IMG/VR virus record: IMGVR_UViG_3300037961_002018
Coordinates: 1-29,254 of that record
DNA: 29,254 nucleotides
From: a virus
Strand: one strand, 5' to 3'
The notes below the pieces were generated by a model. The model worked only from the letters and a program-made list of their open reading frames with translations, was not told the origin of the DNA and ran no database searches. This document shows positions 1,087 to 29,254 of this stretch, piece after piece. Each line of letters starts with the position of its first letter. Position 1 is the stretch's first letter. Made by a program: the position numbers and the translations under genes.

Positions 1087-1887
1087 GTGGTCAAATTCGC
1101 AGATAGAGTTAGGGTAGGTACAAGTACAACTGGTACTGGAACTATAACATTAGGGTCAGCGGAAACAGGCTACCAAACTTTTGCCTCTGGTGGTGTTAGT
1201 AACGGAGATACTGTTAGGTATGTAATAGAAGATGGAGTTAGTGCTTGGGAGATTGGGACAGGTGTTTACACTCACTCAGGCACTACTCTAACCAGAGTTT
1301 TAACTTCTAGTTCTACGGGATCTCTACTAAATCTTAGTGGTAATGCAAAGGTTTTTATAAGTCCTTCTGCTGCAGATTTAGTTTTAGCTCCTAATGCTTT
1401 TAATGTTAACGAGTTTACAGCTACAGCAAACCAAACGACATTTTCGGTAAACTACACAGTAGGCACTATTGATGTCTTTTTAAACGGCGTTAAGCTACTA
1501 CAGGGAGATTATACAGCAACAAATGGTACAAGTGTTGTCTTGGATCATGGCGCTGCTGTAAATGACAAAGTAGAAGTTGTGGAATATGGACTTGGCGATA
1601 GCAATCTTTCCACATTCTCAAACACTTTTACATTGCCCGGATCTGATGGGTCAAATGGGCAAGCGTTAGTTACAAATGGTAGTGGGACACTTAGTTTTTC
1701 TACTATCTCTGGTGGGGGTGGAGCTACTGGTGGTGGTAGTGACGAAGTTTTTCACGAAAACTCTACCACAGTTACAACAAGTTATACTTTAACTACAAAT
1801 AAAAATGCCATGTCGGTAGGCCCGATTACGATAAATAGTGGGGCGACTGTTACAGTCCCTTCAGGAGCTAGGTGGGTGTTGCTATAA
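1087..1887 (+). CDS. Modular tail fibre protein (266 aa)
   Basis: The start is GTG at 1087, preceded by a GAAGGTG-like ribosome site; no in-frame ATG lies nearby. Three modules can be seen. The N-terminal ~95 residues ([19 protein letters not shown] to FISPSAADL) match a fibre module common in phages. Residues ~105-165 carry the [14 protein letters not shown] / [14 protein letters not shown] unit found in many marine and cyanophage fibres. The C-terminus ([21 protein letters not shown]) is a short beta-helical cap seen on other marine fibres. A Gly-rich hinge precedes the cap. The gene ends in TAATG shared with the next start. It most likely contributes to a trimeric fibre or its tip. Confidence 0.75.
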
Positions 1888-3044
1888 TGACTGAAATAAA
1901 AGTTGATAACGTACAGAATGCAGCAGGTTCAGGAAAACCAAACTTTCCTGTGTCTCCTACACACTCTGCAGGTTCAGCCCTTTCTACGCTAAACACATAC
2001 TCGTATACATCTTCTGGTTCAGAGCCAAGCAGTCCTAAAAATGGAGCTTTGTGGTGGGACAGCGGCAACGATAAAGTTATGGTTTATATAGCAGGTGAGT
2101 TTAAGGAGATTGAGTTAAACGCTTCTTCTGGTGCTACTTTTACTTGGGGCGGTGATAGAGGTGTTTTTGCTTCTGGTTATGCAAGCGGAACTTATCAAAA
2201 TACAATAGATTATATTAATTTAACCTCTGCAGGTAATGCTACCGATTTTGGTGATACAACAGAAACAAGAAACGGAGCTAGGGCAACTGGAAGCTCAACT
2301 CGATTTGTTACTGGTACAGGTTATACTGGAAGTGGCTATAGTCAAAATTTGGATTATATAACCACTGCAACCACAGGAAATGCCTCTGATTTTGGTGATC
2401 ATACACATACTGGAATTAGTGGATTGAATCATGGTATTGTATCAAGCGGCACAAGAGGATTATTTGCAGGTGGATATTCTTCTAGTCTTTCTGCCAGAGT
2501 CAATGAAATCACTTATATAACTATAGCTAATACTGGAAACACGACAGATTTCGGAGACCTTACTGTATCACTAAATAATGCTGCAGGTGCAGGTGATGGG
2601 TCTAGAGGTTTATTTGGAGGCGGTCAGAACGCAAGCTTTGGGTATGAAAATACAATAGCGTATGTAACTATTGATACTACAGGAAATGCCACAGATTTCG
2701 GAGACCTTACTTTAGGAAGAAAAGAAGGCTCTGGAGCTGCAGATACTACTAGGTCTCTTTTTCTTGGTGGCGCTCCTTCGACAACAACACAAGGGACTGT
2801 AATCGATTATGTTACAACTCAAACTGCAGGGAATGCTACCGATTTTGGAGATCTTCTTAGTTACAGGTTTGATGGCGCTGCAAGCAGTAATGGAACAAAG
2901 GCAGTAATGACGGGTTATTACGCAGGTGCTACATCAAATGTAATTGAGCAAGTTACTATACAAACCCCCGGAAATGCAACAGACTTCGGTGATCTTACTT
3001 TAGGAAGAACTGGACATGCTGGAGGATCAGGAACAGCATCATGA
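1887..3044 (+). CDS. Kelch-repeat tail fibre, predicted six-bladed propeller, copy A (385 aa)
   Basis: The start is ATG 1887, overlapping the upstream TAA as TAATG; a GTG 15 nt earlier is less likely. Residues 1-45 form a short fibre anchor ([20 protein letters not shown]). Residues ~46-75 carry the module EPSSPKNGALWWDSGND, shared by three later paralogues. The rest is six repeats of about 48 residues, each ending in a motif like TGNATDFGDLT and starting with a GLFxGG-like strand. Six such units fit a closed six-bladed propeller. I infer a receptor-binding or displayed tip protein. The gene overlaps the next one by ATGA. The structure is predicted, not shown. Confidence 0.75.
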   Translation: MTEIKVDNVQNAAGSGKPNFPVSPTHSAGSALSTLNTYSYTSSGSEPSSPKNGALWWDSGNDKVMVYIAGEFKEIELNASSGATFTWGGDRGVFASGYASGTYQNTIDYINLTSAGNATDFGDTTETRNGARATGSSTRFVTGTGYTGSGYSQNLDYITTATTGNASDFGDHTHTGISGLNHGIVSSGTRGLFAGGYSSSLSARVNEITYITIANTGNTTDFGDLTVSLNNAAGAGDGSRGLFGGGQNASFGYENTIAYVTIDTTGNATDFGDLTLGRKEGSGAADTTRSLFLGGAPSTTTQGTVIDYVTTQTAGNATDFGDLLSYRFDGAASSNGTKAVMTGYYAGATSNVIEQVTIQTPGNATDFGDLTLGRTGHAGGSGTAS

Positions 3045-7023: not shown

Positions 7024-8151
7024 ATGAGTACTGCCGAAGAAGTTACAAAAATTAGTGACAGGGCAGGAACAGGTGCGGTCAACTTTTCTAATGGTTTCAA
7101 TGTAAACGGTTCTGACAGTGGCATCTCAAGCTTCACGCACACAGAGGGAGCAAATGAACCAAGTAGTCCTAGCAATGGGGACACATGGTGGGATAGCGAT
7201 AATGATATATACAAAGTATATATGAATAACGAATGGAAAGACTGGTTAGGAACCTCCACTCCTGCATTTGGTTGGGGCGGTGATAGAGGGATTACCGCAG
7301 CGGGAGATGGCGCAAGCACTTATAATACTATCGACTATTTTGATATAACTTCAGCAGGTAATGCGACTGATTTTGGTGACACATCGAGCGGCGCTAATAA
7401 AGTAGCAGCTATAAGCAATGCTTCAAGAATAGTTATTGGTAGTTTGCCGCCAAGTAACACACAGACTTTAGAATATATTACATCTTCTACAACAGGAAAC
7501 ACTACAGACTTTGGTGATCTAGTACAAGGGATGAGTTATTGCGGTGCGGTTAGCAATGGAACTAGAGGAGTTTGGGGCAGCAAATCGAACAGTGGAGCTA
7601 TGGAATACATTACTATAGCCAACACAGGTAATGCTACATCTTTTGGGTCTTTAGATTCTTCGAATTATTTTGCTAATAATGGCCCCGCTTGCGGTAGTGA
7701 TGGAAGTAGAGGACTATTTGCAGGTAACGGTAATGGGTCTAGTATCACAAACGAGATTCAATACATAACAATAGATACAACAGGAAACGCTACTAATTTT
7801 GGTACTCTAACTACTACATGGAGAGATTTTTATGGGTTTCAAAAAGTCTCCGATGCCACAAGAACAGTTTTTGGTGGAGGTTTGTCTACAGGAGGTAGCA
7901 ATAATACTATAGACTATGTTACAACTGGAACTACAGGAAACGCTACAGATTTTGGAGACATGACTACTGGAGTAAGAGGTTGCACAGGTACATCTAACGG
8001 CACTGTTGGTGTTTGGATGGGAGGATATACTTCTACTACTGTAAACACTATTCAGTCTGTAACTATACAAACACCCGCAAATGCTGCGGATTTTGGCGAC
8101 TTAACTGTTGCAAGGTATGAAAACGCAGGATCATCAGGAGCCGCATCATGA
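7024..8151 (+). CDS. Kelch-repeat tail fibre, predicted six-bladed propeller, copy C (375 aa)
   Basis: The N-terminal ~76 residues (SDRAGTGAVNFSNGF, GSDSGISSFTHTEGA, EPSSPSNGDTWWDSDND) are almost identical in protein to copy D. Six repeats follow with motifs such as SAGNATDFGDT, TTGNTTDFGDL, NTGNATSFGSL and TPANAADFGDL. The protein ends NAGSSGAAS. It starts three bases after the stop of copy B and overlaps copy D by ATGA. The conserved anchor and variable blades fit a set of receptor-binding tips sharing one docking site; this is inference. Confidence 0.75.
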   Translation: MSTAEEVTKISDRAGTGAVNFSNGFNVNGSDSGISSFTHTEGANEPSSPSNGDTWWDSDNDIYKVYMNNEWKDWLGTSTPAFGWGGDRGITAAGDGASTYNTIDYFDITSAGNATDFGDTSSGANKVAAISNASRIVIGSLPPSNTQTLEYITSSTTGNTTDFGDLVQGMSYCGAVSNGTRGVWGSKSNSGAMEYITIANTGNATSFGSLDSSNYFANNGPACGSDGSRGLFAGNGNGSSITNEIQYITIDTTGNATNFGTLTTTWRDFYGFQKVSDATRTVFGGGLSTGGSNNTIDYVTTGTTGNATDFGDMTTGVRGCTGTSNGTVGVWMGGYTSTTVNTIQSVTIQTPANAADFGDLTVARYENAGSSGAAS

Positions 8152-9269
8152 GTGAATTCCTAAAAGTTACAAAACTTAGCGATAGAGCAGGTACTGGCGC
8201 TGTTAATTTTTCTAACGGTTTTAACATAAACGGTTCTGATAGCGGTATTTCAAGCTTTACACATACAGAAGGAGCTACCGAGCCTAGCAGCCCATCCAAC
8301 GGAGATACTTGGTGGGATAGTGATAATGACATCTATAAAGTCTACATGAATAATGAGTGGAAAGACTGGCTTGGAGCTACTGCTCCCACTAGTAATGCTT
8401 GGAGTGGTGATAGGGGTGTTATCACTGGTGAAAGTTTTACAAACTACGAAATTCAATATTTTAACATAGCTTCAACAAGCAACGCAGCAGATTTTGGTAA
8501 TCTTAGTGTAACTAGGGGTTTTAAGCTAGGTTCTTGCGGTTCTAGTACTAGAGGTACTTTTGCGGGAGGTTACGCTAGTAGTGCAAGAAGAGATGAAATA
8601 GATTATATTACACATTCCACAACAGGTAACGCCACGGACTTTGGAAATCTTGCTACAGCAAGGTCTTATGGGGGTGGTTGTGCTAACGGAACAATAGGGC
8701 TTTATGCGGGCGGGATAAATGCTTCATCAAGCTATGTAAACACAGTAGAGTCTTTCACGATAGCCAACACAGGAAACGCTGCGGATTTCGGAGACCTGTC
8801 AAGCGCTAATTATGGTAGATTAGGGTCTGGCAATGATGCGACTAGAGCTGTGTTTGGAGGGGGGAGAAGTGGGGGAACCTCAAATACAATAGATTATTTT
8901 ACCTTTGCTTCAGCAGGAAACGCTACAGATTTTGGAGACTTCTTATCAACTCAGCAGGATCTGCAAGGCTGTTCGGATGCAACCAGAATAGTTTTTGGTG
9001 GTAACGCAGGAGGATCAAATGTGCTTCAATATCTTACAACGCAAAGCGCAGGAAATGCTACAGATTTTGGTGATCTTACAGTAAATTTAGATGGAGCCGC
9101 AGGTGTGGCAAACTTAACAAAAGGAGTTTTTGCAGGGGGTATTACGCCTAGCAACCCTGCTAATAACTTAGAAATCATAACGATCCAGACCACAGGAAAC
9201 GCTACTGATCATGGAGACCTTGCAGAAGCACAGTCTTATCCTGTAGCTTGTTCAGGAGCGGCATCTTAA
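8148..9269 (+). CDS. Kelch-repeat tail fibre, predicted six-bladed propeller, copy D (373 aa)
   Basis: The N-terminal anchor (KLSDRAGTGAVNFSNGF to MNNEWKDWLG) matches copy C almost residue for residue, but the DNA differs at most synonymous sites. Six repeats follow (STSNAADFGNL, TTGNATDFGNL, NTGNAADFGDL, SAGNATDFGDF, SAGNATDFGDL, TTGNATDHGDL) and the protein ends VACSGAAS. The blade loops differ from those of copy C. The gene overlaps copy C by ATGA and is followed by an AGGAG for the next gene. The last repeat has DHGDL in place of DFGDL, as also seen in copy B. Confidence 0.75.
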   Translation: MSEFLKVTKLSDRAGTGAVNFSNGFNINGSDSGISSFTHTEGATEPSSPSNGDTWWDSDNDIYKVYMNNEWKDWLGATAPTSNAWSGDRGVITGESFTNYEIQYFNIASTSNAADFGNLSVTRGFKLGSCGSSTRGTFAGGYASSARRDEIDYITHSTTGNATDFGNLATARSYGGGCANGTIGLYAGGINASSSYVNTVESFTIANTGNAADFGDLSSANYGRLGSGNDATRAVFGGGRSGGTSNTIDYFTFASAGNATDFGDFLSTQQDLQGCSDATRIVFGGNAGGSNVLQYLTTQSAGNATDFGDLTVNLDGAAGVANLTKGVFAGGITPSNPANNLEIITIQTTGNATDHGDLAEAQSYPVACSGAAS

Positions 9270-13990: not shown

Positions 13991-15910
13991 ATGGTATTAC
14001 AAAAAATGGAATTTAGGCCCGGAATAAACTCGGAGCTTCCTGATTACGCCAATGAAAACGGTTGGAGTGATGGGGATAAGATACGGTTCAGAGAAGGTTA
14101 CCCAGAAAAAATAGGTGGTTGGGCTGCTAAAGGTGAAAATCAGTTTATAGGTTCTTGCCGTGCATTAAAGCCTTGGTTGACGTTAGAATCAGATAGATTG
14201 GTAGGGGTGGGTACGCACCTTAAATACTACATAGAAGACGGTGGGGTCTTTTATGACATTACACCAATAAGAAACACAACCGCAGCGGGAGATGTAACTT
14301 TTTCTGCCACAACTGGTAGTCATGTTATAACTGTGACAGATACAAACCATGAAGCTAAACTAGGTGATTTTGTTACGTTTAGTGGGGCTGTTGGCCTTGG
14401 AGGAGCAATAACAGCAGATGTTTTAAATCAAGAATATCAAATACAAACAGCTACAAACAGCACTTATACGATAAATGCTAGGACAGCAAATACAGACGTA
14501 AACCAATATTATGATGGTGGGGTTATAAATGATGCTGCAGCATATGTATCAGCGACATCAGGAGATACAAACACTGGCGGCTCAAATACAGTAGGCGCTT
14601 ATCAAGTGCAGTCTGGTGTGGATACATCTACATTTGGCAATGGTTGGGGTGCAGGTACATGGTCTAGAGGCGCTTGGAACTCAAGAGCTTCAGTCAATGT
14701 TTTGGCAGAGACATTAAGATTATGGCAACATGATACTTTTGGTGAAGACCTTATTTTTTGTGTACGAGATGGGCCAATATTCTACTGGGACACATCTGGC
14801 AGTGTTTCTCAGAGAGGTGTATACTTATCAGCCCTTACAAGTGCGAGCAACACACCTTTAGTAGCAAAACAGGTTATGGTGTCAGATATTGATAGGCACG
14901 TTATAGCTTTTGGCTGCAACCCGCTTGGATCTAACGTACAAGACCCTCTTCTTATTAGATTTTCAGATCAAGAAAATCCTGCGAATTGGACACCTTTAAC
15001 TACTAATACAGCAGGGGATCTCCGTATAGGTTCTGGTACAGCCATAGTGCAAGCGGTTGAGACAAGACAAGAGATACTAATTTTTACAGACCAAGGTCTA
15101 CACTCTATGCAGTTTATAGGCCCACCTTTTACTTTTGGTATAAACAGGGTTTCAGAGAATTTAAGTATTAGAAGCCCTAACTCTGCTGTTGCTATAGGTG
15201 ATAATGTATATTGGATGGGTGTTGATCAATTTTATGTGTACTCAGGTAATGTCGCTCAACTTAATTGCACAGTAAAAGAGAAGGTACTTACAGATATTAA
15301 TAATGAGCAGTCAGAAAAAATATTTGTTGGTGTAAACTCTGGCTACGGTGAAATATGGTGGTTCTATCCATCGTTAGAAAGTGATAACATTGATAAGTAC
15401 GTTGTCTATAATTACAACCAAGACATTTGGTATTATGGTACTTTAGACAGAACCGCATGGATAGATATGGGTGTAGACGATTACCCAATAGCAGCGGGGA
15501 CAGATGGTAAACTTTATTTCCACGAGTTTGGGCATGATGACCAAAGCACTCCAACGCCAACTGCAATCAATGCTTTTGTGCAATCTGCTCCCATAGATTT
15601 AGGAGATGGTGAGGTCTTTAGCTATGTTCGAAAGCTAATACCTGATGTAACTTTTAGAAACAGCACTAATGCTGCACCGACAGTAGATTATACCATAGAC
15701 GCTTTTAACTATAATGGCGGTCTGCAGGTTAGCTCTGACACAGCAAATATTGTTAAATCTTCCTCTGTTCCTATAGAGCAGTATACAGAGAAAGTAGATC
15801 TTAGAGTTAGAGGCAGAGCCATTGCTTTAAAAGTGCAATCTTCTCAAACAGGCACAACATGGAGATTAGGTCTAAATAGACTTGATATTAGACCTGACGG
15901 GAAAAGATAA
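13991..15910 (+). CDS. Tail nozzle/stabilisation-like structural protein (639 aa)
   Basis: The N-terminus (EFRPGINSELPDYANENGW, DKIRFREGYPEKIGGW) is characteristic of a large tail protein widespread in marine podovirus-like phages, often called tail tubular protein B-like or stabilisation protein-like. T7 gp12 and P22 gp10 are the functional analogues. The body is beta-rich with propeller-like segments (LKPWLTLESDRLVGVGTH, EDLIFCVRDGPIFYWDTS, RQEILIFTDQGLHSMQFIG, IWWFYPSLESDNIDKYVVYN). The C-terminus (YTEKVDLRVRGRAIALKVQS, then WRLGLNRLDIRPDGKR) is conserved in this family. The role would be the distal tail tube to which fibres attach. The exact family name is uncertain. Confidence 0.68.
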   Translation: MVLQKMEFRPGINSELPDYANENGWSDGDKIRFREGYPEKIGGWAAKGENQFIGSCRALKPWLTLESDRLVGVGTHLKYYIEDGGVFYDITPIRNTTAAGDVTFSATTGSHVITVTDTNHEAKLGDFVTFSGAVGLGGAITADVLNQEYQIQTATNSTYTINARTANTDVNQYYDGGVINDAAAYVSATSGDTNTGGSNTVGAYQVQSGVDTSTFGNGWGAGTWSRGAWNSRASVNVLAETLRLWQHDTFGEDLIFCVRDGPIFYWDTSGSVSQRGVYLSALTSASNTPLVAKQVMVSDIDRHVIAFGCNPLGSNVQDPLLIRFSDQENPANWTPLTTNTAGDLRIGSGTAIVQAVETRQEILIFTDQGLHSMQFIGPPFTFGINRVSENLSIRSPNSAVAIGDNVYWMGVDQFYVYSGNVAQLNCTVKEKVLTDINNEQSEKIFVGVNSGYGEIWWFYPSLESDNIDKYVVYNYNQDIWYYGTLDRTAWIDMGVDDYPIAAGTDGKLYFHEFGHDDQSTPTPTAINAFVQSAPIDLGDGEVFSYVRKLIPDVTFRNSTNAAPTVDYTIDAFNYNGGLQVSSDTANIVKSSSVPIEQYTEKVDLRVRGRAIALKVQSSQTGTTWRLGLNRLDIRPDGKR

Positions 15911-20829: not shown

Positions 20830-21275
20830 AAGATGTAAGAACAGGATTAATGTTTTCTCCAGTTCCTACTGAATTTGTTGATGTTGTTTGGCCTAAAGTG
20901 TCTGAGATAATGGAGCGGTCAGTAAAGACTGCAGAAGGAAAGTACAAAGTAGAAGATCTTTATCCTGAAATTATGGATAATCAGATTGTCTTATGGATTG
21001 TTGCTGATCACGATAGGGATGACGAGATTATAGCTGCAATTACCACCAGATTAATAGAATATCCGCAAGGAAACTCTATGGCTATGGATTGGATTGGTGG
21101 TAAAAGAATGAAAGACTGGTTGCCTATGGCGCAAGAATCTATTTCTCGCTATGCTAGAGACCATAAATGTAAGTATTTAGAAGGCTATGGAAGAAAAGGT
21201 TGGGATCGTTGGCTTAGAAAGTACGGGTGGAAGCCAGACTATATCGCCTATAAAATGGAGTTAAACTATGGGTAA
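20826..21275 (+). CDS. GNAT-fold-like phage protein, gp13-like (149 aa)
   Basis: The layout is that of a small GNAT-type (acetyltransferase fold) protein common in podovirus-like phages: WPKVSEIMERSVKTAEGK, then strands (QIVLWIVADHDRDDEIIAAI, TTRLIEYPQGNSMAMDWIGG), a helix (ESISRYARDHKCKYLEGYGR) and the ending GWDRWLRKYGWKPDYIAYKM. T7 gp13-like proteins occupy this place in other phages. I see no clear acetyl-CoA pyrophosphate loop (R/QxxGxG/A), so catalysis is doubtful and a structural or assembly role is more likely. It overlaps the previous gene by ATGA and the next by 8 nt. Confidence 0.65.
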   Translation: MKDVRTGLMFSPVPTEFVDVVWPKVSEIMERSVKTAEGKYKVEDLYPEIMDNQIVLWIVADHDRDDEIIAAITTRLIEYPQGNSMAMDWIGGKRMKDWLPMAQESISRYARDHKCKYLEGYGRKGWDRWLRKYGWKPDYIAYKMELNYG

Positions 21276-22131
21276 GGGTAATAAGCAGGTAAAAGCGGGA
21301 GAACAGACGGTAATTAATTCATTACCTGATTACGCTCGTCCATACTTTGAGAACCTTATGGAACGTGCTGAGGCAGAATCTTTACAAGGATATCAGCCTT
21401 ATCAGGGTCAAAGAATAGCTGAATCTGGCAGCATAGCTGACATAGCTAACTCAAGAAATATGGTCAGGGGGATAGCAAATCAGGGTATGCCTGAGACAGA
21501 AGAGGCCATAGGAGGTATTAGAGACCTAGCCCAACGCGGTCAGTTTACTGGTCAAACTGCTCAAGACTACATGAACCCTTACATGGAGCAGGTTGTAGAC
21601 AGGCAGAAACAATCTGCAATACAAGATTTTAATCGTATGGGCGCAGCTAGAAATGCTCAAGCTGTAAACGCAGGTGCATTTGGCGGGTCTAGAGCAGCAG
21701 TTGCTGATTATCTTGCTCAAGAAGGGCTACAAGATCAATTAGCTGATATTGACGCTACAGGCAGGGAAGCTGCTTTTAGGGATGCTAGAGCAGGTTTTGA
21801 TGCTGATAGGCAGATGGGAATGCAGGGTCTTGGTCAGTTGGCACAGCTTGGAAGTGCTAGAAGAGCAGGTGACATACAAGGCGCACAATTGCTAGAGGGC
21901 ATAGGAAAAACACAGCTTGGAGAGCAACAAGCAGGTTTAGACATAGGCTATCAGGACTTTTTAGGTCAGCAAAACTTCAACAAAGACCAGTTGGGTTTCT
22001 TTTCTAACATGCTTCAAGGTGTTCCTGTTAGGCCGAATACACAACAGGCAACTTTTCAGCCTTACAATCCTCTGCAACAAGCTCTTGGCGCAGGGATAAC
22101 GGGTCTAAGTCTATATCGTGGGTTAACATAA
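21268..22131 (+). CDS. Internal virion/ejection protein (287 aa)
   Basis: Mostly helical and Gln/Ala/Gly-rich. Recognisable segments are PDYARPYFENLMERAEAES, DYMNPYMEQVVDRQKQSA, the conserved QAVNAGAFGGSRAAVADYL and repeated helical units with AGxQGAQLLEGIGKTQLGEQ. The C-terminus is FQPYNPLQQALGAGITG. The pattern is common to internal virion proteins of marine and T7-like phages (gp14-like position), which leave the capsid and help form a channel across the host envelope. It starts within the last 8 nt of the previous gene and ends in TAATG with the next. Confidence 0.7.
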   Translation: MGKGNKQVKAGEQTVINSLPDYARPYFENLMERAEAESLQGYQPYQGQRIAESGSIADIANSRNMVRGIANQGMPETEEAIGGIRDLAQRGQFTGQTAQDYMNPYMEQVVDRQKQSAIQDFNRMGAARNAQAVNAGAFGGSRAAVADYLAQEGLQDQLADIDATGREAAFRDARAGFDADRQMGMQGLGQLAQLGSARRAGDIQGAQLLEGIGKTQLGEQQAGLDIGYQDFLGQQNFNKDQLGFFSNMLQGVPVRPNTQQATFQPYNPLQQALGAGITGLSLYRGLT

Positions 22132-24044
22132 TGAATATTGTAGAAGTACAGGACAATCTCAAAAACTTTTCTCAAGATCAATTAATTAACGAAATAAATC
22201 AGCCTTCTGGCATGGTTCCTCAGTTCCTAGTTCTAACAGAGCTAGGAAGGCGCAATAGAATAAAGCAGGACATGGAAGGCAGACAGGCTCAAAATCAACC
22301 TACAGTTGCTCAAGAAGTTGTCTCAGCAGCAGGTGTACCGCAAGGCGGCATAATGGATATGGCTAGGTCTATGGCTCCAAAAAGTTCAATTGAACAAAAT
22401 GATGCTGTCAACATGATGAAAGAGGGTGGAAAGCCTAGGAATAGAATGGATATGCTATTGGCATATCTAAGAAGTCTAGGTGCTGATGAAGAAGAAGAAG
22501 TCAAAGAGGCCACTGGTGGTAAATCTATAGCAGAGATAATTAACTTTGGTGGTGACTTTAGGCCTGTCAAAAAGAAGGCCGATGGTGGCGTTGTTAAGAT
22601 GTTTACTGGTGGTATTGGTGGGTTATCTACAAATGCAAACGATTTTGGTGGATTGACAGTTCCTTTATTAGAGGGCGCTTTAAGCCAGTCTGACTTGGAG
22701 AAACAACGCCTTGCGGAAGAGGAAGCTAAAAGAAAGAAAGAATTAGAGAGATTTTTAGAAAAACAAAAACCAAAATATAAAGGAGGAGCTTTGCCGGGTG
22801 GCTCTCAGACAGATACGTTTGGTCTGTTGGGGGCAGAGAAAAAAGTTGTGAATGGTGAAGAGTTTTATGTTTTTCCTACAGGCAAGGTTTATGACAAAAA
22901 TGGCAGGTCTGTACAGGGCGGCATGGCTATGGAGGTTATAAAGAGGGCGCAGTTAGATGGGTCTGATTTTCAATACTCTCCTACAGGAACTTTTGGTTTT
23001 TATGGAGAAAATCCTGATGGCAGCACAAATCCTGAAGATTTCACACCCTTCGGAGGTCTTGATATAGGTGATCTCACAACTCCCGATCCTCTTGTAAATT
23101 TAGGACAAGGTACAAAGAATTTAATCAATACTGTAACAGATACAGTTGCTCCATCTATTCCAGATATAGTTGATGGAACTGCAGATATAACTAATGTCGA
23201 TAATACACTTACATCTTTCAATCCACCTAGGCCATCTACTGATGCTGTAAATTTAATGAAAATAAATCAACCAGAAGTTCCTGATGAGCTTATGATTGGA
23301 GCGTTTGGAGATATAGTTCGACCTGATGAGCTTCAGATGCCTGAGTTTAACAACACTCCAAGACCACCATTTTTACCTTCAGGAAGTGGAGATATGCCTG
23401 ATGAGTTAATGGTTCCGTTTGACAACACACCTACTAAGGGCAAAGGTGGCGATGATGGGGGTGATGGAGCAGGAGGTGGCGGTGACGCAGGAACTGGCGG
23501 CACTAAAGGCGGATCTGCTCTTGGCGCTCTTGAGTCAGAAATAGCTGATATGTTGAAACAAAATGAAGAGGATAGAGATAAAGATAAGTATTTAGCTTTA
23601 GCAAAGATGGGGCTTGCACTTATGTCATCATCTCAACCTACACTTGGTGGTGCTTTAGGAGAGGCAGGTATAGCAGGTTTAGATGACTTACAAGCATCTA
23701 GAAAATCATACAGAGATGACAAATTAGCATTGCTTGATACTCGAAGAAAGTTAGAACAGGCTAGAGCCACTGCTGCAGCCAAAGACAAAAGCGGCCTTAC
23801 AGGAACAAATGTAGTTTCATCTCTAAATAATATTAGAAATCAAAAAGCTAAAGCAATGTCAGATCTTGCTGCAATAGCTCCTCAATTTGAAGGCGGTACA
23901 CTTACAAAAGAACAAGAAGCTGCTGCAGAAATGTTTAGAAGACAAATAGCTAATCTAAGTGTGATGGAAAGCACATATGAAGCCATGCTTGGAGGTATAG
24001 GTTCTTTAGGTTCTACTGGTACTTTTAACGCAACCGCAAATTAA
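22131..24044 (+). CDS. Large internal virion-type protein (637 aa)
   Basis: The N-terminal ~70 residues (DQLINEINQPSGMVPQFLVL, TELGRRNRIKQDMEGRQAQ, VPQGGIMDMARSM) match a conserved start I recall in marine phage internal virion proteins. A charged helical stretch follows at ~185-215 (LEKQRLAEEEAKRKKELER). A flexible middle has three short repeats (VPDELM, RPDELQ, MPDELM, residues ~383-430) and a Gly/Asp-rich linker. The last ~180 residues are helical (KYLALAKMGLALMSSSQPTL, ALLDTRRKLEQARATAAAKD). It begins by TAATG overlap. It is probably ejected with its neighbours; the palindrome at 22384 lies within it. Confidence 0.68.
   Translation: MNIVEVQDNLKNFSQDQLINEINQPSGMVPQFLVLTELGRRNRIKQDMEGRQAQNQPTVAQEVVSAAGVPQGGIMDMARSMAPKSSIEQNDAVNMMKEGGKPRNRMDMLLAYLRSLGADEEEEVKEATGGKSIAEIINFGGDFRPVKKKADGGVVKMFTGGIGGLSTNANDFGGLTVPLLEGALSQSDLEKQRLAEEEAKRKKELERFLEKQKPKYKGGALPGGSQTDTFGLLGAEKKVVNGEEFYVFPTGKVYDKNGRSVQGGMAMEVIKRAQLDGSDFQYSPTGTFGFYGENPDGSTNPEDFTPFGGLDIGDLTTPDPLVNLGQGTKNLINTVTDTVAPSIPDIVDGTADITNVDNTLTSFNPPRPSTDAVNLMKINQPEVPDELMIGAFGDIVRPDELQMPEFNNTPRPPFLPSGSGDMPDELMVPFDNTPTKGKGGDDGGDGAGGGGDAGTGGTKGGSALGALESEIADMLKQNEEDRDKDKYLALAKMGLALMSSSQPTLGGALGEAGIAGLDDLQASRKSYRDDKLALLDTRRKLEQARATAAAKDKSGLTGTNVVSSLNNIRNQKAKAMSDLAAIAPQFEGGTLTKEQEAAAEMFRRQIANLSVMESTYEAMLGGIGSLGSTGTFNATAN
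22384..22395. repeat. Palindrome GTTCAATTGAAC inside a CDS (copy 3 of 4)
   Basis: A perfect 12-bp palindrome, about 250 nt into the 637-residue gene, read there as K-S-S-I-E-Q-N. With flanks it is AGTTCAATTGAACAAA, the same 16-mer as copy 4. No T tract follows, so it is unlikely to terminate transcription. Confidence 0.7.
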
Positions 24045-24058
24045 ATGAGGATTGGATT

Positions 24059-27000
24059 ATGGGCGTTATCCAACAAAAAGGTCAATTCTCAGGTAAATCA
24101 TACTCAATTCAAATAGCAGGTGATACGCCAACTCCTGTAGAACAACAAAAGATAGACAGCTATCTTACACAACAAGAACAGCCTTACAAACAATCTTACG
24201 AATACTATTTTGGTCAAAGGACTAATGAGGACGTTCCTCAAGAAGTGCCTATTCAAGAAGAGGGTGGTTTTAGAAGGGCTGTAGGCGCAGGTGTTGATCA
24301 GCTTCAAATAGCATATGGCTCAAGTTTAGAAGGCTTGGGTAAAGTTACTGGTCTAGAAGGCTTAGAAAATTATGGCTCTGATGTTGTTGAAAAGAACGAA
24401 CAAGAGTTTCAAGAAAAAGCTGCAGGTTTTACGAGATTAGATGATGCCGATAGTTTCGGTGATTATATTAAATTTTACACGGAAACTCTCGGTCAGCAAC
24501 TTCCAAACCTTGGTTCTACATTAGCGGGTTCTGGCGCAGGTGCATTGGCAGGTTCTGCTTTTGGCCCTGTAGGAACTTTTGTTGGCGGTATAGCAGGTGG
24601 TATGGCTGCTAATATTCCTTATTTTTATGGAGATAATAGGGAAGCTCAAAAGGAAGCAATGGAGAGAGGTCTTCGAACAGAAATGAACGAAGGCGCAGCT
24701 TTCCTTTATTCTATTCCTCAAGCATCTTTGGATTTAATTGTAGATAGATTGCTCGTTGGCGGCATTCTTCCAAAATCATTTGGCACTTCTGGTGCAATAT
24801 TTACCCGTGGAGTTAAAGGCGTAGCTATTGGTAATGTCGTAGAGATTCCTACAGAGATTGGTCAAGAGGTCTTAAATAGATACCAAGCAGGTCTTTCTAT
24901 TGCTGATGAGGAAGCTTTAAGAGTTTATAGAGATGTAGCTATAGCTGCAGGTCTTGTTGGTGGTACTGTTCGCGGTGGTACTAATATAATTGCAGGTGAC
25001 CAAAGGGTCAGGGATAAAAATAAAGAAGAACAGGAAAAAATTCGACAGCTTCAAGAAGATCAAGAAGAAGCAAGACAAAGAGCATTACTAAAGAAACAAG
25101 AAATAAACAAATCAAAAGCAATGATCGATGAAGATCTTGTAGAAGATGTTGAAGAAAAGCAGAGAAAATTAGAAGAAAAACAAGCGGAAGTAAGAAGATT
25201 AGCAGGGGTTGAAGAACAACCTCTGCAGCTTGGAGTAATGGCTCCACCACCTGATAACAATAGGCTCTCTCCTGAAGAAGAGAAGATGGCTCTTTTACAG
25301 GCAGCTAGAGAGACAACACTGCCACTTATACCAGTAGAGCTGTCAACTTTGCCTTTAGATGAACAGGTAAGAATTAGAAGCTCTCGCAGAGCGCAAGGCG
25401 TAGATACCACAACACCTGCTTCGATAGATGAAATAAGAAGAGTTTTAGGTGAAGACGTAGCTGATAGAGAAGTTAGGAAACAAAAACCTCTAGGGGGCGG
25501 TGCAGCACACTTTGGCCCGATTAGCGGTAAAAGCTTTACACAATCACAATATGACCGTGCCGTACAGGAGATTAAGGCTCAGAAGAAATACACTTTCAAT
25601 GCTGTGCAGAAAGCTTTGAAGGCTACAGGCCTTAACAGAGTACCAAGGCAAATGGTTCTCGATGTCAGAGATGAGATGGTAAACCGTGGGATACTTCGTA
25701 AGTCTGATAGAGTTAGAACTGGTTACGTTGTTGAGGCAGACATTGAATCATCTTTTGACGAGGCGGCATCATACAGAAAAACCGTCAATGATATCAGGAC
25801 GTTATTAGACGGAGAAAGAACTGCTAAGAAAAAAGCAGAGAATGAAACTGATGAAGAGTTTCAGTCTAGAAAACTAGGATTAAGATCTTACAGAAGAAAG
25901 CTTCTTGAGGATGCTCGAAGAGCGCAACAGGTAGAGGGCAATGTAAGAAAAGCTCGACAGTTAAATGCTAAGGCTGATGCTCTTGAGGGCGAGATAGCTA
26001 GAGCAGAAAAGACTGTTACAGACTTAGAAAAGAAGATTGAGACAAGCCCTCAAGGTCAGGCAATACCTGCCACAGAAAGACCAAAGGTACTATCATCTGA
26101 TGAGAAGCAAGCAATCGGAAGCCAAGAGACAACTCAAGGACAAAGAGAAGCCCTTCAAACTAGCGTTAATAACAGAAAAGCGGAGCTTGATGAAAAACGC
26201 AAAATGCTTCGTAGGTTAAAAGCTAGAAAAGCACCTAGACCTCAAGTTGATCAGGTTGCAATAAGAGAACTTGAGAATGACATAGAAAGATTAAAATACT
26301 TTATTAAGTCTGCTCAGTCTAAGATAGATGCTCCATCATCTCCAGTGCAGGTTGCTCCAGAGGCCAAGCAAGCCAAGACAGCTAGAACAGTCGCTGATCT
26401 GGCACTAAACAGAAGAAAGAGTGATGTCTTTACAGCTAAAGAGCAGCAGGTATTTAACGCTTTAAGAAAGCGTCTTACAAGGCTTGGTCTTAGAGATGTT
26501 AATCTGACTGTAGAAAAAACTCTTGCTAGAACTGTAAACATCAATGGTCAAAATGTTCATGTAGACCCAGAAGGTCAGTTTGATGCTAAGGATGGCAATA
26601 GAATTATATCTTTAGCAATGGAGGCTGTTGACCCTAACGCAACAGCGCAGGAGCAGTTCGATGCCCTAAAAGGTATAATGAACCATGAGGTTATACACGC
26701 TCTTAAAAATCTTGGCTTATTTACAAAACAGGAATACGCATCATTAGTAAAAGCTGCCAAAGCTAAAAAGTATGTTGCTATAAAAGATGGTGTGCCAACC
26801 GAAAGAAAGTATTCTTACTACGACAGAGCAAGATCTATGTATGAAGGCATAGGTGCATCTGAGGCAACCATAGAAGAAGAAGCAGTAGCAGAGCTATTTA
26901 GAGACTATGCAGATAATAAGATTAAACTATCTGGCAAGCCTCGAACACTCATGCAGCGCATCAAAGATTTCTTTGTTGGTATAGTTAAAGGCAACAATGA

Positions 27001-29254
27001 TGTAGGTATATCTAGTGTAGAAGACATATTCGATAACATAAGAAGTGGGAACATAGGGGCTAGAGGCATCATCTCATCTGAGAAGCGGCCTTTCCAAATG
27101 ATTTTAAATAGAGACTTTGGAGACCCAGAAGGTGACGTTGAATCTCAGTCGTTAGCCTTCTCACTTAAGAACTTCACTCCTAAGCTTCCGTTTGCTCCAG
27201 ATGGCGCAAGAGCGCACAAGCTCCCACATCAATTATTGATAGAGGGATCAGGCAGACCAGAAACCATACAGGTTACTCAAAAGTATACCAGAGGTAATGC
27301 CGAAAGAAATAATAGTTCAATTGAACAAATTTTAGAGCAGCATCCAAACGCTACAGATTCTGTGCAAAATTGGATGGACGCAATGCAAGATGCTTTTGGT
27401 GGTGAATACATTCCTGCTCCACCGTTGGTTGCTATACAGTATAGCTCTTCTCCTGAAGCTATGGCTGAGAAGCTTAAAGATTTAACACCAGAGCTGAGAA
27501 AAGGTGTAGATGAAGGCTTTAAGCATGTAAAAGATCTTCAGAACATATATAGCAGTGGTAATGCCACACCTCGAATGACCCTAGATTTATTTATATGGGG
27601 AATACTTTCAAGAGGTGCGGGGCCAGTTCAGCAAGAGTCAGCATATATAGATATAATTGATCAAGCCCACCCATTATTAGAAAAAGCTGCTCGTGAACCA
27701 TTGACAGAAGACGACCTTGATCGATGGATGCTTGAAGTTTCTACATCAATTCCTGAAGGGTCACCCGGTAAACAAGTTACTATGAACGTAAATGCAGCAG
27801 CAAAACTAGTTTCTGCAATGTCACAAATGGTTCCTAATACAAACAGAACAACTCTTGATTTAGTTCACGAACAAATGATAGACGCAAATGTTTCAGCATC
27901 TGATATAAGAGAAACATTTCTTGCAAATACAGAGGGCGCAGGAATAGATAACAAAGTGTTATCTTTTATCCTTCTTGTTGCAGGTAAAGATGATGTTCTC
28001 GTTATGGATAGAATACAAGGCAGACATCTGTGGGATGATGGCAGATATGGTGGTTCTAATATTTATGATGGTATAGGGCCAAATAATGAAGGTCTTAACG
28101 GAATATTTAGAGGCCCAAGGGGTATTCTTGTCACTCGTATGCTTGAGAATGGTATGCGTAAAAATATTGATAAAGCTTACGAACTTGTCGGCAGACCACA
28201 AGACGCTTCTCTTGGCAGATTTCATTGGGAGACTTGGGTTATCGAGGGAGAGCAAGTTGTTAACCACGGCTCTCTAAAAGCGATCATAGACAGAACCACT
28301 GTTGGAACTAGGGTGACGGAAGGTAAAACAGATACATTTTCTTCAAACATGACTTACATGAGAGGACTGAATGCTACTGTTGTAGAGTATCCTTTGTCAG
28401 ATGGTGATGTGGTTTATATGACGCCTCAGACATTTAAAGATTTTACTAATGAAATGTCTAATGATGCCAAAAAGAAAAACTCTAAAACAGGTATATTTAA
28501 ACAAGGTAATTTTAAAGTAAGTTCAAGAGCCGACATCCCTTGGTTTGAAAGGGTGGATGAAATAGACAGAGGCTCTATAGATAAATTAGCAAGGGAGTAT
28601 GAAGATGCAAAACCCAATGGCTCAGTTCTTAGAAGCGATGAGAGGACTGGAAAAAACAAGGACGCCTCTAGAAGAGGGAACTCAGACCTCGACAGAAGAT
28701 ACAGCCTCGGCTTCCTCACAACAACAGACACAGAAAGACTCCTCAAAGAAAAGCAATTAAAGGTTCGAAGGGACGAAAAGATTGGAGGCTTAAAAGGGTT
28801 TATACAAAATAATCCTGATGGCTTTACAATAAGCCCAGAAACAATGGAGCCAGTGTCTGGTGGCTTTGTTGTTGCCCCATTAAAAGAAGCAGAGATTATA
28901 GTTGGTCAAGAATTACCTGAGCAGGTTTTGATTGATTATATTGAGGATAACAAGGCGATAGCAGAGGCCACTGGGAGAGATGTTTATCTTGGTGGTTGGT
29001 TCGATACTGAATCAAACCAATATTTCTTAGACAATACCCTTATAGTAGACAGTAAGGAAGAAGCATTGTATATTGCTGAAGCGTCAGAGCAGTTAGCAAT
29101 ATTTGATTTAAATACATTCGAAGAGGTCAGAACAAATGACGGAATCTCAGAACTCAAACAAAGTGGTGCTTACAAAAGTGACACCGCAATCGGATACAAA
29201 AGAAACGCTGAAGAAATTGGTAGACGCTTTGCAGAAGCAAGGGATCAACGTAAT
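24059..29254 (+). CDS. Giant polyvalent-type virion protein with HExxH motif (3' partial, 1732 codons seen)
   Basis: One frame runs without a stop from ATG 24059 (AGG 8 nt upstream) to the window end. N-terminal region: GFRRAVGAGVDQLQIAYGSS and a glycine-zipper hydrophobic stretch near residues 158-185 (GSGAGALAGSAFGPVGTFVG). Coiled coils lie near 320-385 and 600-760. A zinc-metallopeptidase motif H876-E-V-I-H880 is followed ~60 residues later by an EEEAVAEL helix that could give the third ligand (E940/E941). A domain near 1300 reads ILLVAGKDDVLVMDRIQGRH. At ~1588-1700 is a unit typical of phage large polyvalent proteins (FVVAPLKEAE, DVYLGGWFD, EQLAIFDLNTF). It is probably ejected with the DNA to modify the host; the domain names are from memory. 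Confidence 0.8.
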   Translation, partial: MGVIQQKGQFSGKSYSIQIAGDTPTPVEQQKIDSYLTQQEQPYKQSYEYYFGQRTNEDVPQEVPIQEEGGFRRAVGAGVDQLQIAYGSSLEGLGKVTGLEGLENYGSDVVEKNEQEFQEKAAGFTRLDDADSFGDYIKFYTETLGQQLPNLGSTLAGSGAGALAGSAFGPVGTFVGGIAGGMAANIPYFYGDNREAQKEAMERGLRTEMNEGAAFLYSIPQASLDLIVDRLLVGGILPKSFGTSGAIFTRGVKGVAIGNVVEIPTEIGQEVLNRYQAGLSIADEEALRVYRDVAIAAGLVGGTVRGGTNIIAGDQRVRDKNKEEQEKIRQLQEDQEEARQRALLKKQEINKSKAMIDEDLVEDVEEKQRKLEEKQAEVRRLAGVEEQPLQLGVMAPPPDNNRLSPEEEKMALLQAARETTLPLIPVELSTLPLDEQVRIRSSRRAQGVDTTTPASIDEIRRVLGEDVADREVRKQKPLGGGAAHFGPISGKSFTQSQYDRAVQEIKAQKKYTFNAVQKALKATGLNRVPRQMVLDVRDEMVNRGILRKSDRVRTGYVVEADIESSFDEAASYRKTVNDIRTLLDGERTAKKKAENETDEEFQSRKLGLRSYRRKLLEDARRAQQVEGNVRKARQLNAKADALEGEIARAEKTVTDLEKKIETSPQGQAIPATERPKVLSSDEKQAIGSQETTQGQREALQTSVNNRKAELDEKRKMLRRLKARKAPRPQVDQVAIRELENDIERLKYFIKSAQSKIDAPSSPVQVAPEAKQAKTARTVADLALNRRKSDVFTAKEQQVFNALRKRLTRLGLRDVNLTVEKTLARTVNINGQNVHVDPEGQFDAKDGNRIISLAMEAVDPNATAQEQFDALKGIMNHEVIHALKNLGLFTKQEYASLVKAAKAKKYVAIKDGVPTERKYSYYDRARSMYEGIGASEATIEEEAVAELFRDYADNKIKLSGKPRTLMQRIKDFFVGIVKGNNDVGISSVEDIFDNIRSGNIGARGIISSEKRPFQMILNRDFGDPEGDVESQSLAFSLKNFTPKLPFAPDGARAHKLPHQLLIEGSGRPETIQVTQKYTRGNAERNNSSIEQILEQHPNATDSVQNWMDAMQDAFGGEYIPAPPLVAIQYSSSPEAMAEKLKDLTPELRKGVDEGFKHVKDLQNIYSSGNATPRMTLDLFIWGILSRGAGPVQQESAYIDIIDQAHPLLEKAAREPLTEDDLDRWMLEVSTSIPEGSPGKQVTMNVNAAAKLVSAMSQMVPNTNRTTLDLVHEQMIDANVSASDIRETFLANTEGAGIDNKVLSFILLVAGKDDVLVMDRIQGRHLWDDGRYGGSNIYDGIGPNNEGLNGIFRGPRGILVTRMLENGMRKNIDKAYELVGRPQDASLGRFHWETWVIEGEQVVNHGSLKAIIDRTTVGTRVTEGKTDTFSSNMTYMRGLNATVVEYPLSDGDVVYMTPQTFKDFTNEMSNDAKKKNSKTGIFKQGNFKVSSRADIPWFERVDEIDRGSIDKLAREYEDAKPNGSVLRSDERTGKNKDASRRGNSDLDRRYSLGFLTTTDTERLLKEKQLKVRRDEKIGGLKGFIQNNPDGFTISPETMEPVSGGFVVAPLKEAEIIVGQELPEQVLIDYIEDNKAIAEATGRDVYLGGWFDTESNQYFLDNTLIVDSKEEALYIAEASEQLAIFDLNTFEEVRTNDGISELKQSGAYKSDTAIGYKRNAEEIGRRFAEARDQRN
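27315..27326. repeat. Palindrome GTTCAATTGAAC inside a CDS (copy 4 of 4)
   Basis: A perfect 12-bp palindrome in the giant gene, read as N-S-S-I-E-Q-I. It shares the 16-mer AGTTCAATTGAACAAA with copy 3 although the surrounding proteins are unrelated. Confidence 0.7.
28605..28760 (+). CDS. Out-of-frame ORF nested in the giant gene (51 aa)
   Basis: An ATG at 28605 with AAGGGAG 7 nt upstream opens a 51-residue frame, MQNPMAQFLEAMRGLEKTRT onward, with a Ser/Thr/Gln-rich tail ending KKSN. It is a helical start with a hydrophilic tail. In the same stretch the giant gene's own codons become unusual: I count five CTC leucine codons in about 52 codons against roughly seven in the ~1,500 codons before, and many C-ending codons. 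That is what constraint from a second frame would look like. The main frame there is a charged, low-complexity linker, which would tolerate overprinting. No known family. Confidence 0.4.
   Translation: MQNPMAQFLEAMRGLEKTRTPLEEGTQTSTEDTASASSQQQTQKDSSKKSN
29136..29254 (+). CDS. Second out-of-frame ORF at the window end (3' partial)
   Basis: An ATG at 29136, with AAGAGG 9 nt upstream, opens a frame that runs off the window: MTESQNSNKVVLTKVTPQSD, then KETLKKLVDALQKQGINV. It looks like an ordinary protein N-terminus with an amphipathic helix. The giant gene stays open in its own frame over the same bases (DGISELKQSGAY, AEEIGRRFAEAR). Either the giant gene ends soon after the window and this is the next gene with a long overlap, or it is a nested gene. 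Both this ORF and the one at 28605 lie in the same frame relative to the giant gene. Confidence 0.45.
   Translation, partial: MTESQNSNKVVLTKVTPQSDTKETLKKLVDALQKQGINV

Follow-up and report, generated by a model that had tools for sequence, protein, structure and literature searches.

A giant polyvalent-type protein of an uncultured phage with a predicted OGG2-like glycosylase fold and an exchange slot

The polyvalent proteins described by Iyer et al. in 2017 (PMC5512222) share several properties with the giant protein analysed here: giant size, a gene position in a late or virion cluster, a zincin-like MPTase domain, a C-terminal LPD38 domain (here in relatives), a PBECR-like region and a mixture of linked domains. 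Only the present protein has a conserved domain of OGG2 fold and a defined cassette slot, and its MPTase clade, unlike theirs, matched no Pfam model. The main text of that paper contains no mention of a DNA glycosylase. The virion RNA polymerase of phage N4 (gp50, 3,500 aa; PMC12633501), the closest case that has been studied, is also a giant ejected protein, and its HExxH domain precedes a large helical region at the C-terminus; its RNA polymerase domain was not found in the present protein, which has a glycosylase-fold domain instead. The N4 protein is described in PMC5512222 as packaged uncleaved. The published model of the recombinant N4 protein (3,500 residues) covers residue 1007 up to the C-terminal end and includes the HExxH domain, and no cleavage by this domain was reported (PMC12633501). 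Since the N4 protein is packaged whole and was modelled through its HExxH domain, self-cleavage of the present protein cannot be assumed. DdrB of phage P1 is likewise a large head protein with an MPTase and was reported as processed in work cited in PMC5512222, but its domain set is different.

Two further systems resemble parts of the protein. The particle internal protein of Bruynoghevirus (phage U47 gp49) has its N-terminal ~230 residues and its gene position in common with it, but is 1,055 aa long compared with about 2,900 aa here, and the shared part is only 27% identical. The OGG2 glycosylases (SsOgg, 3fhg; MjOgg, 3knt; Tm1821, 3n0u; PF22175) resemble an internal domain, here named D2, in the predicted fold over the whole chain and in a Lys and an Asp about 18 residues apart after a hairpin. 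Unlike these enzymes, D2 had no detectable sequence match, contains phage-specific extensions and is located in a giant virion-type protein. Giant proteins with MPTase and LPD38 have been described before; what sets this one apart is the OGG2-like domain together with the slot.

The giant gene and its late-gene neighbourhood

The window, i.e. the whole stretch of DNA analysed, was the entire IMG/VR contig IMGVR_UViG_3300037961_002018 (29,254 bases). The giant gene, its N-terminal regions and its upstream neighbours were located as follows.

21268..22131, + strand: DNA ejection protein (phrog_4287, E 3.2e-15)
22131..24044, + strand: 637-aa ORF upstream of the giant gene (adjacency conserved in relatives)
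24059..29254, + strand: giant ORF, 1,732 codons, truncated at its 3' side by the end of the contig
24059..25078, + strand: N-terminal virion/ejection-type region, aa 1-340 (phrog_6958, Bruynoghevirus likeness)
24506-24628, + strand: Gly-rich GxxxG stretch, aa ~150-190 (motif count)
25001..26368, + strand: linker with charged, proline-poor stretches at aa ~315-385 and ~609-770 (crude composition test)

The giant gene formed one frame of 1,732 codons from the ATG at 24059 to the last base of the contig, without a stop codon. Since the frame was open at the contig end and relatives reached ~2,900 aa, the gene is truncated. By comparison with these sequences a full-length protein of ~2,900 aa is expected, of which 1,732 codons represent about 60%. 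The frame of more than 1,700 codons in the first-pass annotation is therefore real but, being open at its 3' end, not whole. Full-length relatives included L002 (2,915 aa) and L105, which supplied the remaining C-terminal part. The order of MPTase, D2, cassette slot, PBECR-like region and helical core with LPD38 was conserved among relatives. In tblastn searches of 50,697 phage genomes, the protein encoded in the window had no full-length match, and aa 751-1732 gave weak matches in the cassette region only, at E values up to 10.

The giant gene followed a tightly packed cluster, in which the phrog_4287 "DNA ejection protein" lay two genes before it. Genes for tail fibre, baseplate, endolysin and spanin-like proteins were found upstream on the contig, which placed the giant gene in a late/virion neighbourhood. 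The 637-aa ORF, judged by its position, probably encodes an internal virion protein. Residues 55-306 of the giant protein matched the virion structural proteins of phrog_6958 (E 2.9e-17), and residues 53-288 weakly matched the Bruynoghevirus particle internal protein U47_49 (E 1e-3). These sequence matches support an internal virion protein, which may be injected. Among the internal (ejection) proteins of the phage, which is uncultured and probably short-tailed, the product of this gene is probably the largest. The glycine zipper and coiled coils of the first-pass annotation corresponded to the Gly-rich GxxxG region at aa ~150-190 and to the long charged, proline-poor stretches of the linker, which probably form coiled coil as judged by a crude composition test.

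Elsewhere on the contig, three tail-region ORFs (1872-3044, 7024-8151 and 8148-9269) each weakly matched the small PHROG phrog_26444, which suggests a shared short module. A 639-aa virion structural protein (13991-15910; phrog_3287, E 6e-74) had a sub-threshold match to E1_FCCH.

The C-terminal part was read from the relatives. Downstream of the slot these had a conserved PBECR-like region and then a helical core with LPD38 (E 7e-39 in the C-terminal part of full-length relatives); the window ends before this domain. The core of L105, which shares the window's cassette, was 91% identical to that of L002. No polyvalent-associated Pfam domain was found in the part of the giant protein encoded in the window, and the residues previously taken for polyvalent-type C-terminal units were instead D2 (aa ~1049-1530) and the variable cassette (aa ~1557 on). 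The assignment to polyvalent-type virion or ejection proteins was nevertheless supported by the phrog "DNA ejection protein" upstream, the phrog_6958- and Bruynoghevirus-like N-terminus and LPD38 in relatives.

Predicted metallopeptidase and OGG2-like domains

Two unrelated, putatively enzymatic domains, a predicted MPTase fold and an OGG2-like fold, were modelled within the one frame.

26396..27058, + strand: zincin-like MPTase domain, aa ~780-1000 (alignments, AF2 model, VIA matches)
26684-26698, + strand: HEVIH, aa 876-880 (single HExxH in the frame)
26876-26881, + strand: invariant Glu pair, aa 940-941 (alignments)
27203..28648, + strand: D2, OGG2-type HhH DNA-glycosylase fold with phage-specific extensions, aa ~1049-1530 (AF2, VIA)
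27458-28267, + strand: D2 core, aa 1134-1403
27953-27955, + strand: K1299 of D2
28007-28009, + strand: D1317 of D2

The frame contained one HExxH only, a motif present in 0.7% of 2,000 composition shuffles. HEVIH was conserved in relatives together with its surroundings. A scan of viral contigs at the DNA level for the pattern HE-x-[IV]-HAL-xx-LG-x-F returned 101 viral stretches, nearly all within very large ORFs. The columns within this pattern are conserved by selection of the sequences; E940 and E941, about 64 residues downstream, lie outside it and were both invariant in 65 diverse non-redundant relatives. As the strands of the MPTase were poorly defined in the joint MPTase/D2 model, the MPTase was folded alone. 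The resulting AlphaFold2 model (pLDDT 79.6, pTM 0.76) was zincin-like in layout, with a helix, a sheet, a HExxH helix and a Glu helix. HEVIH (model residues 105-109) was located on helix 92-113, and the Glu pair 940-941, a candidate third zinc ligand, on model helix 164-180.

The top VIA-align 2 match of this model was the catalytic domain of a lethal-factor-type zincin peptidase (Z 6.9, rmsd 5.4, 161 residues), followed by MATCAP, one alphaKG-HExxH oxygenase (Z 4.6), SPRTN and BlaR1. With a Z of only 6.9 the match to a peptidase fold is modest. Foldseek alone gave no significant match of the model to the PDB, the sequence profile retrieved nothing relevant from the PDB, and the clade matched no Pfam model and nothing useful among PHROGs or NCBIfam. 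Iyer et al. relate the MPTase of polyvalent proteins to the fold of the zincin peptidases matched here (PMC5512222), and the HEVIH domain appears to be the MPTase hub domain of these proteins, a known kind. The oxygenase match leads to a reading of the HExxH domain as structural or as a HExxH-type alpha-ketoglutarate/metal-dependent oxygenase, and the authors of the N4 polymerase study met the same ambiguity for their own HExxH domain, without a report of proteolysis (PMC12633501). We regard this reading as unlikely, since zincin peptidases ranked higher than the oxygenase, the peptidases SPRTN and BlaR1 were among the lower matches, and both HExxH and the later Glu pair were invariant. The metallopeptidase motif of the first-pass annotation was thus placed in a predicted fold of peptidase type, with conserved acidic residues as candidates for the third ligand; the structure prediction did not show HEVIH in a non-peptidase fold lacking such a ligand. 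A D2-containing protein of 1,302 aa (L119) had another HExxH-type motif, SHEAQH (aa ~600), upstream of D2.

D2 was modelled with a pLDDT mostly of 80-98 in the joint AF2 model. With VIA, the model aligned to SsOgg (3fhg) over 206/207 residues (Z 14.9, rmsd 3.6), and to MjOgg (3knt) and Tm1821 (3n0u) with Z 14.8 and 14.6, respectively. Through rank 49 all matches were HhH-type DNA glycosylases or the queuine-salvage DUF2419 (Z 9.3); the first match outside these families was an unrelated enzyme at Z 4.3. High Z scores of helical models may arise by chance, but the D2 model matched one family far above the rest. Foldseek alone gave no significant match to the PDB and paired D2 with two proteins from uncultured phages, both of them uncharacterised (E 4e-28 and 2e-26). 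At the sequence level, D2 matched nothing in Pfam (even at E 10), PHROG or NCBIfam, its profile retrieved nothing relevant from the PDB, and hhalign pairings with two cellular Ogg proteins or with a DUF7178-like domain were not significant. Since D2 had no sequence match to PF22175 or PF00730 (PF22175 was absent from the contig), it is called OGG2-like rather than a member of OGG2. The Synechococcus phage S-CBP42 protein G8EYE9 (198 aa, uncharacterised) resembled part of the joint model (TM-score by target 0.59).

The D2 motif GxGIDNK-VxSFxLLxAGxxDVxVMD has a hairpin, a Lys and an Asp in the order found in OGG enzymes, whose catalytic Lys/Asp pair is K249/D268 in human OGG1. In the model the hairpin leads into a helix that opens with K1299, and D1317 lies just ahead of the next helix; both residues were in register with two cellular Ogg proteins in a weak, non-significant hhalign pairing. 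D2 is therefore predicted to keep the OGG-type pair as K1299/D1317, in a register derived from motif, secondary structure and this weak profile pairing rather than from superposition. The spacing NK-x17-D was present in 103/103 D2 sequences; the Asp lay in one of the scan patterns and the Lys in none.

At least 103 viral stretches encoded D2, and among 84,980 species genomes it was found on one contig, which also bore a portal gene. It also occurred in proteins of 860-1,700 aa of other phage types. On two T7-like contigs (L114, L145) the D2 protein was encoded two ORFs past a T7-type tail protein, in the internal-core position, and in L183 D2 lay between terminase and portal. The D2 of L114 had no match in 50,697 phage genomes. 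Some related giant proteins (L084, aa ~1215-1550; L244; L230) lacked D2 and carried a different domain with the motif GPKVNSFxxNL...TNDTWM, reminiscent of HhH glycosylases; in L244 it matched Pfam DUF7178 (E 2.2e-6).

D2 could also be a DNA-binding module of HhH-GPD fold or a base-modifying transferase. The phage glycinyltransferase PUGT (PDB 8z2n), which decorates phage DNA, was among the weak Foldseek matches; D2 has long conserved phage-specific extensions (GRFHWETWVI, YPLSDG); and DUF2419, whose related fold serves a different substrate, was also matched. OGG2 enzymes, however, matched far better and over the whole length, and both residues of the OGG pair were kept. Base modification would, moreover, presumably be needed during replication and not in an injected protein. 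A function other than that of a glycosylase hence appears improbable. A structural or tape-measure-like virion protein with decayed, enzyme-like passenger domains would accord with the large helical core and with a weak tape-measure profile match on the Gly-rich stretch. Relatives that had diverged widely all kept the predicted catalytic residues of both domains; this points to ongoing selection and makes such decay very unlikely.

The exchange slot and the probable role of the protein

The part of the frame after D2 varied between close relatives.

28728..29254, + strand: variable cassette of "YLDxS" type, aa ~1557 onward (DNA homology break)

The window was 86% identical to L002 at the DNA level up to base 28727 and then lacked any identity, whereas L105 continued with the window's cassette. 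Between L105 and L002 the flanks were 85% (before the slot) and 90% (after the slot) identical, the last 60 bases ahead of the left edge were the same, and the cassettes measured 558 and 588 bases, respectively. As the L105 cassette has 558 bases, that of the window is short by about 30 bases. A second pair, L120 and L109, had other cassettes between flanks of 92% and 91% identity (protein level), and L127 had no cassette at this position. The stretch after D2 is an exchange slot: proteins that are otherwise nearly identical have cassettes here that are unrelated to each other. The YLDxS family comprised 57 loci and was also found at other positions. The other cassette types were ParB-like, GNAT-like and "HDGH"; these names, as well as PBECR-like, denote motif resemblance only and had no Pfam support. 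An internal virion protein of Synechococcus phage S-CBP42 weakly matched the window's cassette.

Because every sequence was a metagenome contig, the difference between cassettes might be an assembly artefact. This is extremely unlikely: between those flanks YLDxS occurred in both the window and L105, the ParB-like cassette in L002 and in L003 from another metagenome, and the separate near-identical pair L120/L109 had a different swap at the same place.

We consider it fairly likely that the giant protein is an injected polyvalent protein combining a peptidase, a domain acting on DNA bases and an exchangeable effector; its packaging, injection, activities and targets we infer. The N-terminal Gly-rich region would serve packaging and passage through the envelope, and the protein would enter the cell alongside the first DNA. 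There the zincin-like domain might act as a peptidase that either cuts a protein of the host or releases the effector domains linked to it. The OGG2-fold domain would flip a base out of DNA and excise it via K1299/D1317, either in incoming phage DNA (repair) or in DNA of the host or a competitor (attack), and the slot would deliver the exchangeable effector. Against this reading stand the D2 between terminase and portal in another phage type, the lack of a sequence profile tying D2 to known glycosylases, the non-significant Foldseek result against the PDB, the modest match to a peptidase fold and the lack of reported cleavage by the HExxH domain of the N4 polymerase. A broader proposal, which we advance tentatively, is that uncultured phages of a widespread family carry a DNA glycosylase within their injected proteins, with base excision on incoming or host DNA from the moment of entry and an adjoining slot in which effectors are swapped as in polymorphic toxins.

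The open-access literature searched yielded no precedent for a DNA glycosylase domain in phage ejection, virion or polyvalent proteins. If active, D2 would excise bases as part of an injected protein, which that literature describes for no phage ejection protein, and the question would be whether it repairs the phage genome at entry or attacks modified DNA of the host or of competitor phages. The MPTase domain lies outside all Pfam models although it is common, with 101 viral stretches located by a single motif. The slot shows a mode of evolution in which different domains replace one another at a single position between predicted catalytic units that remain near-unchanged, and it is a place to seek new phage effectors.
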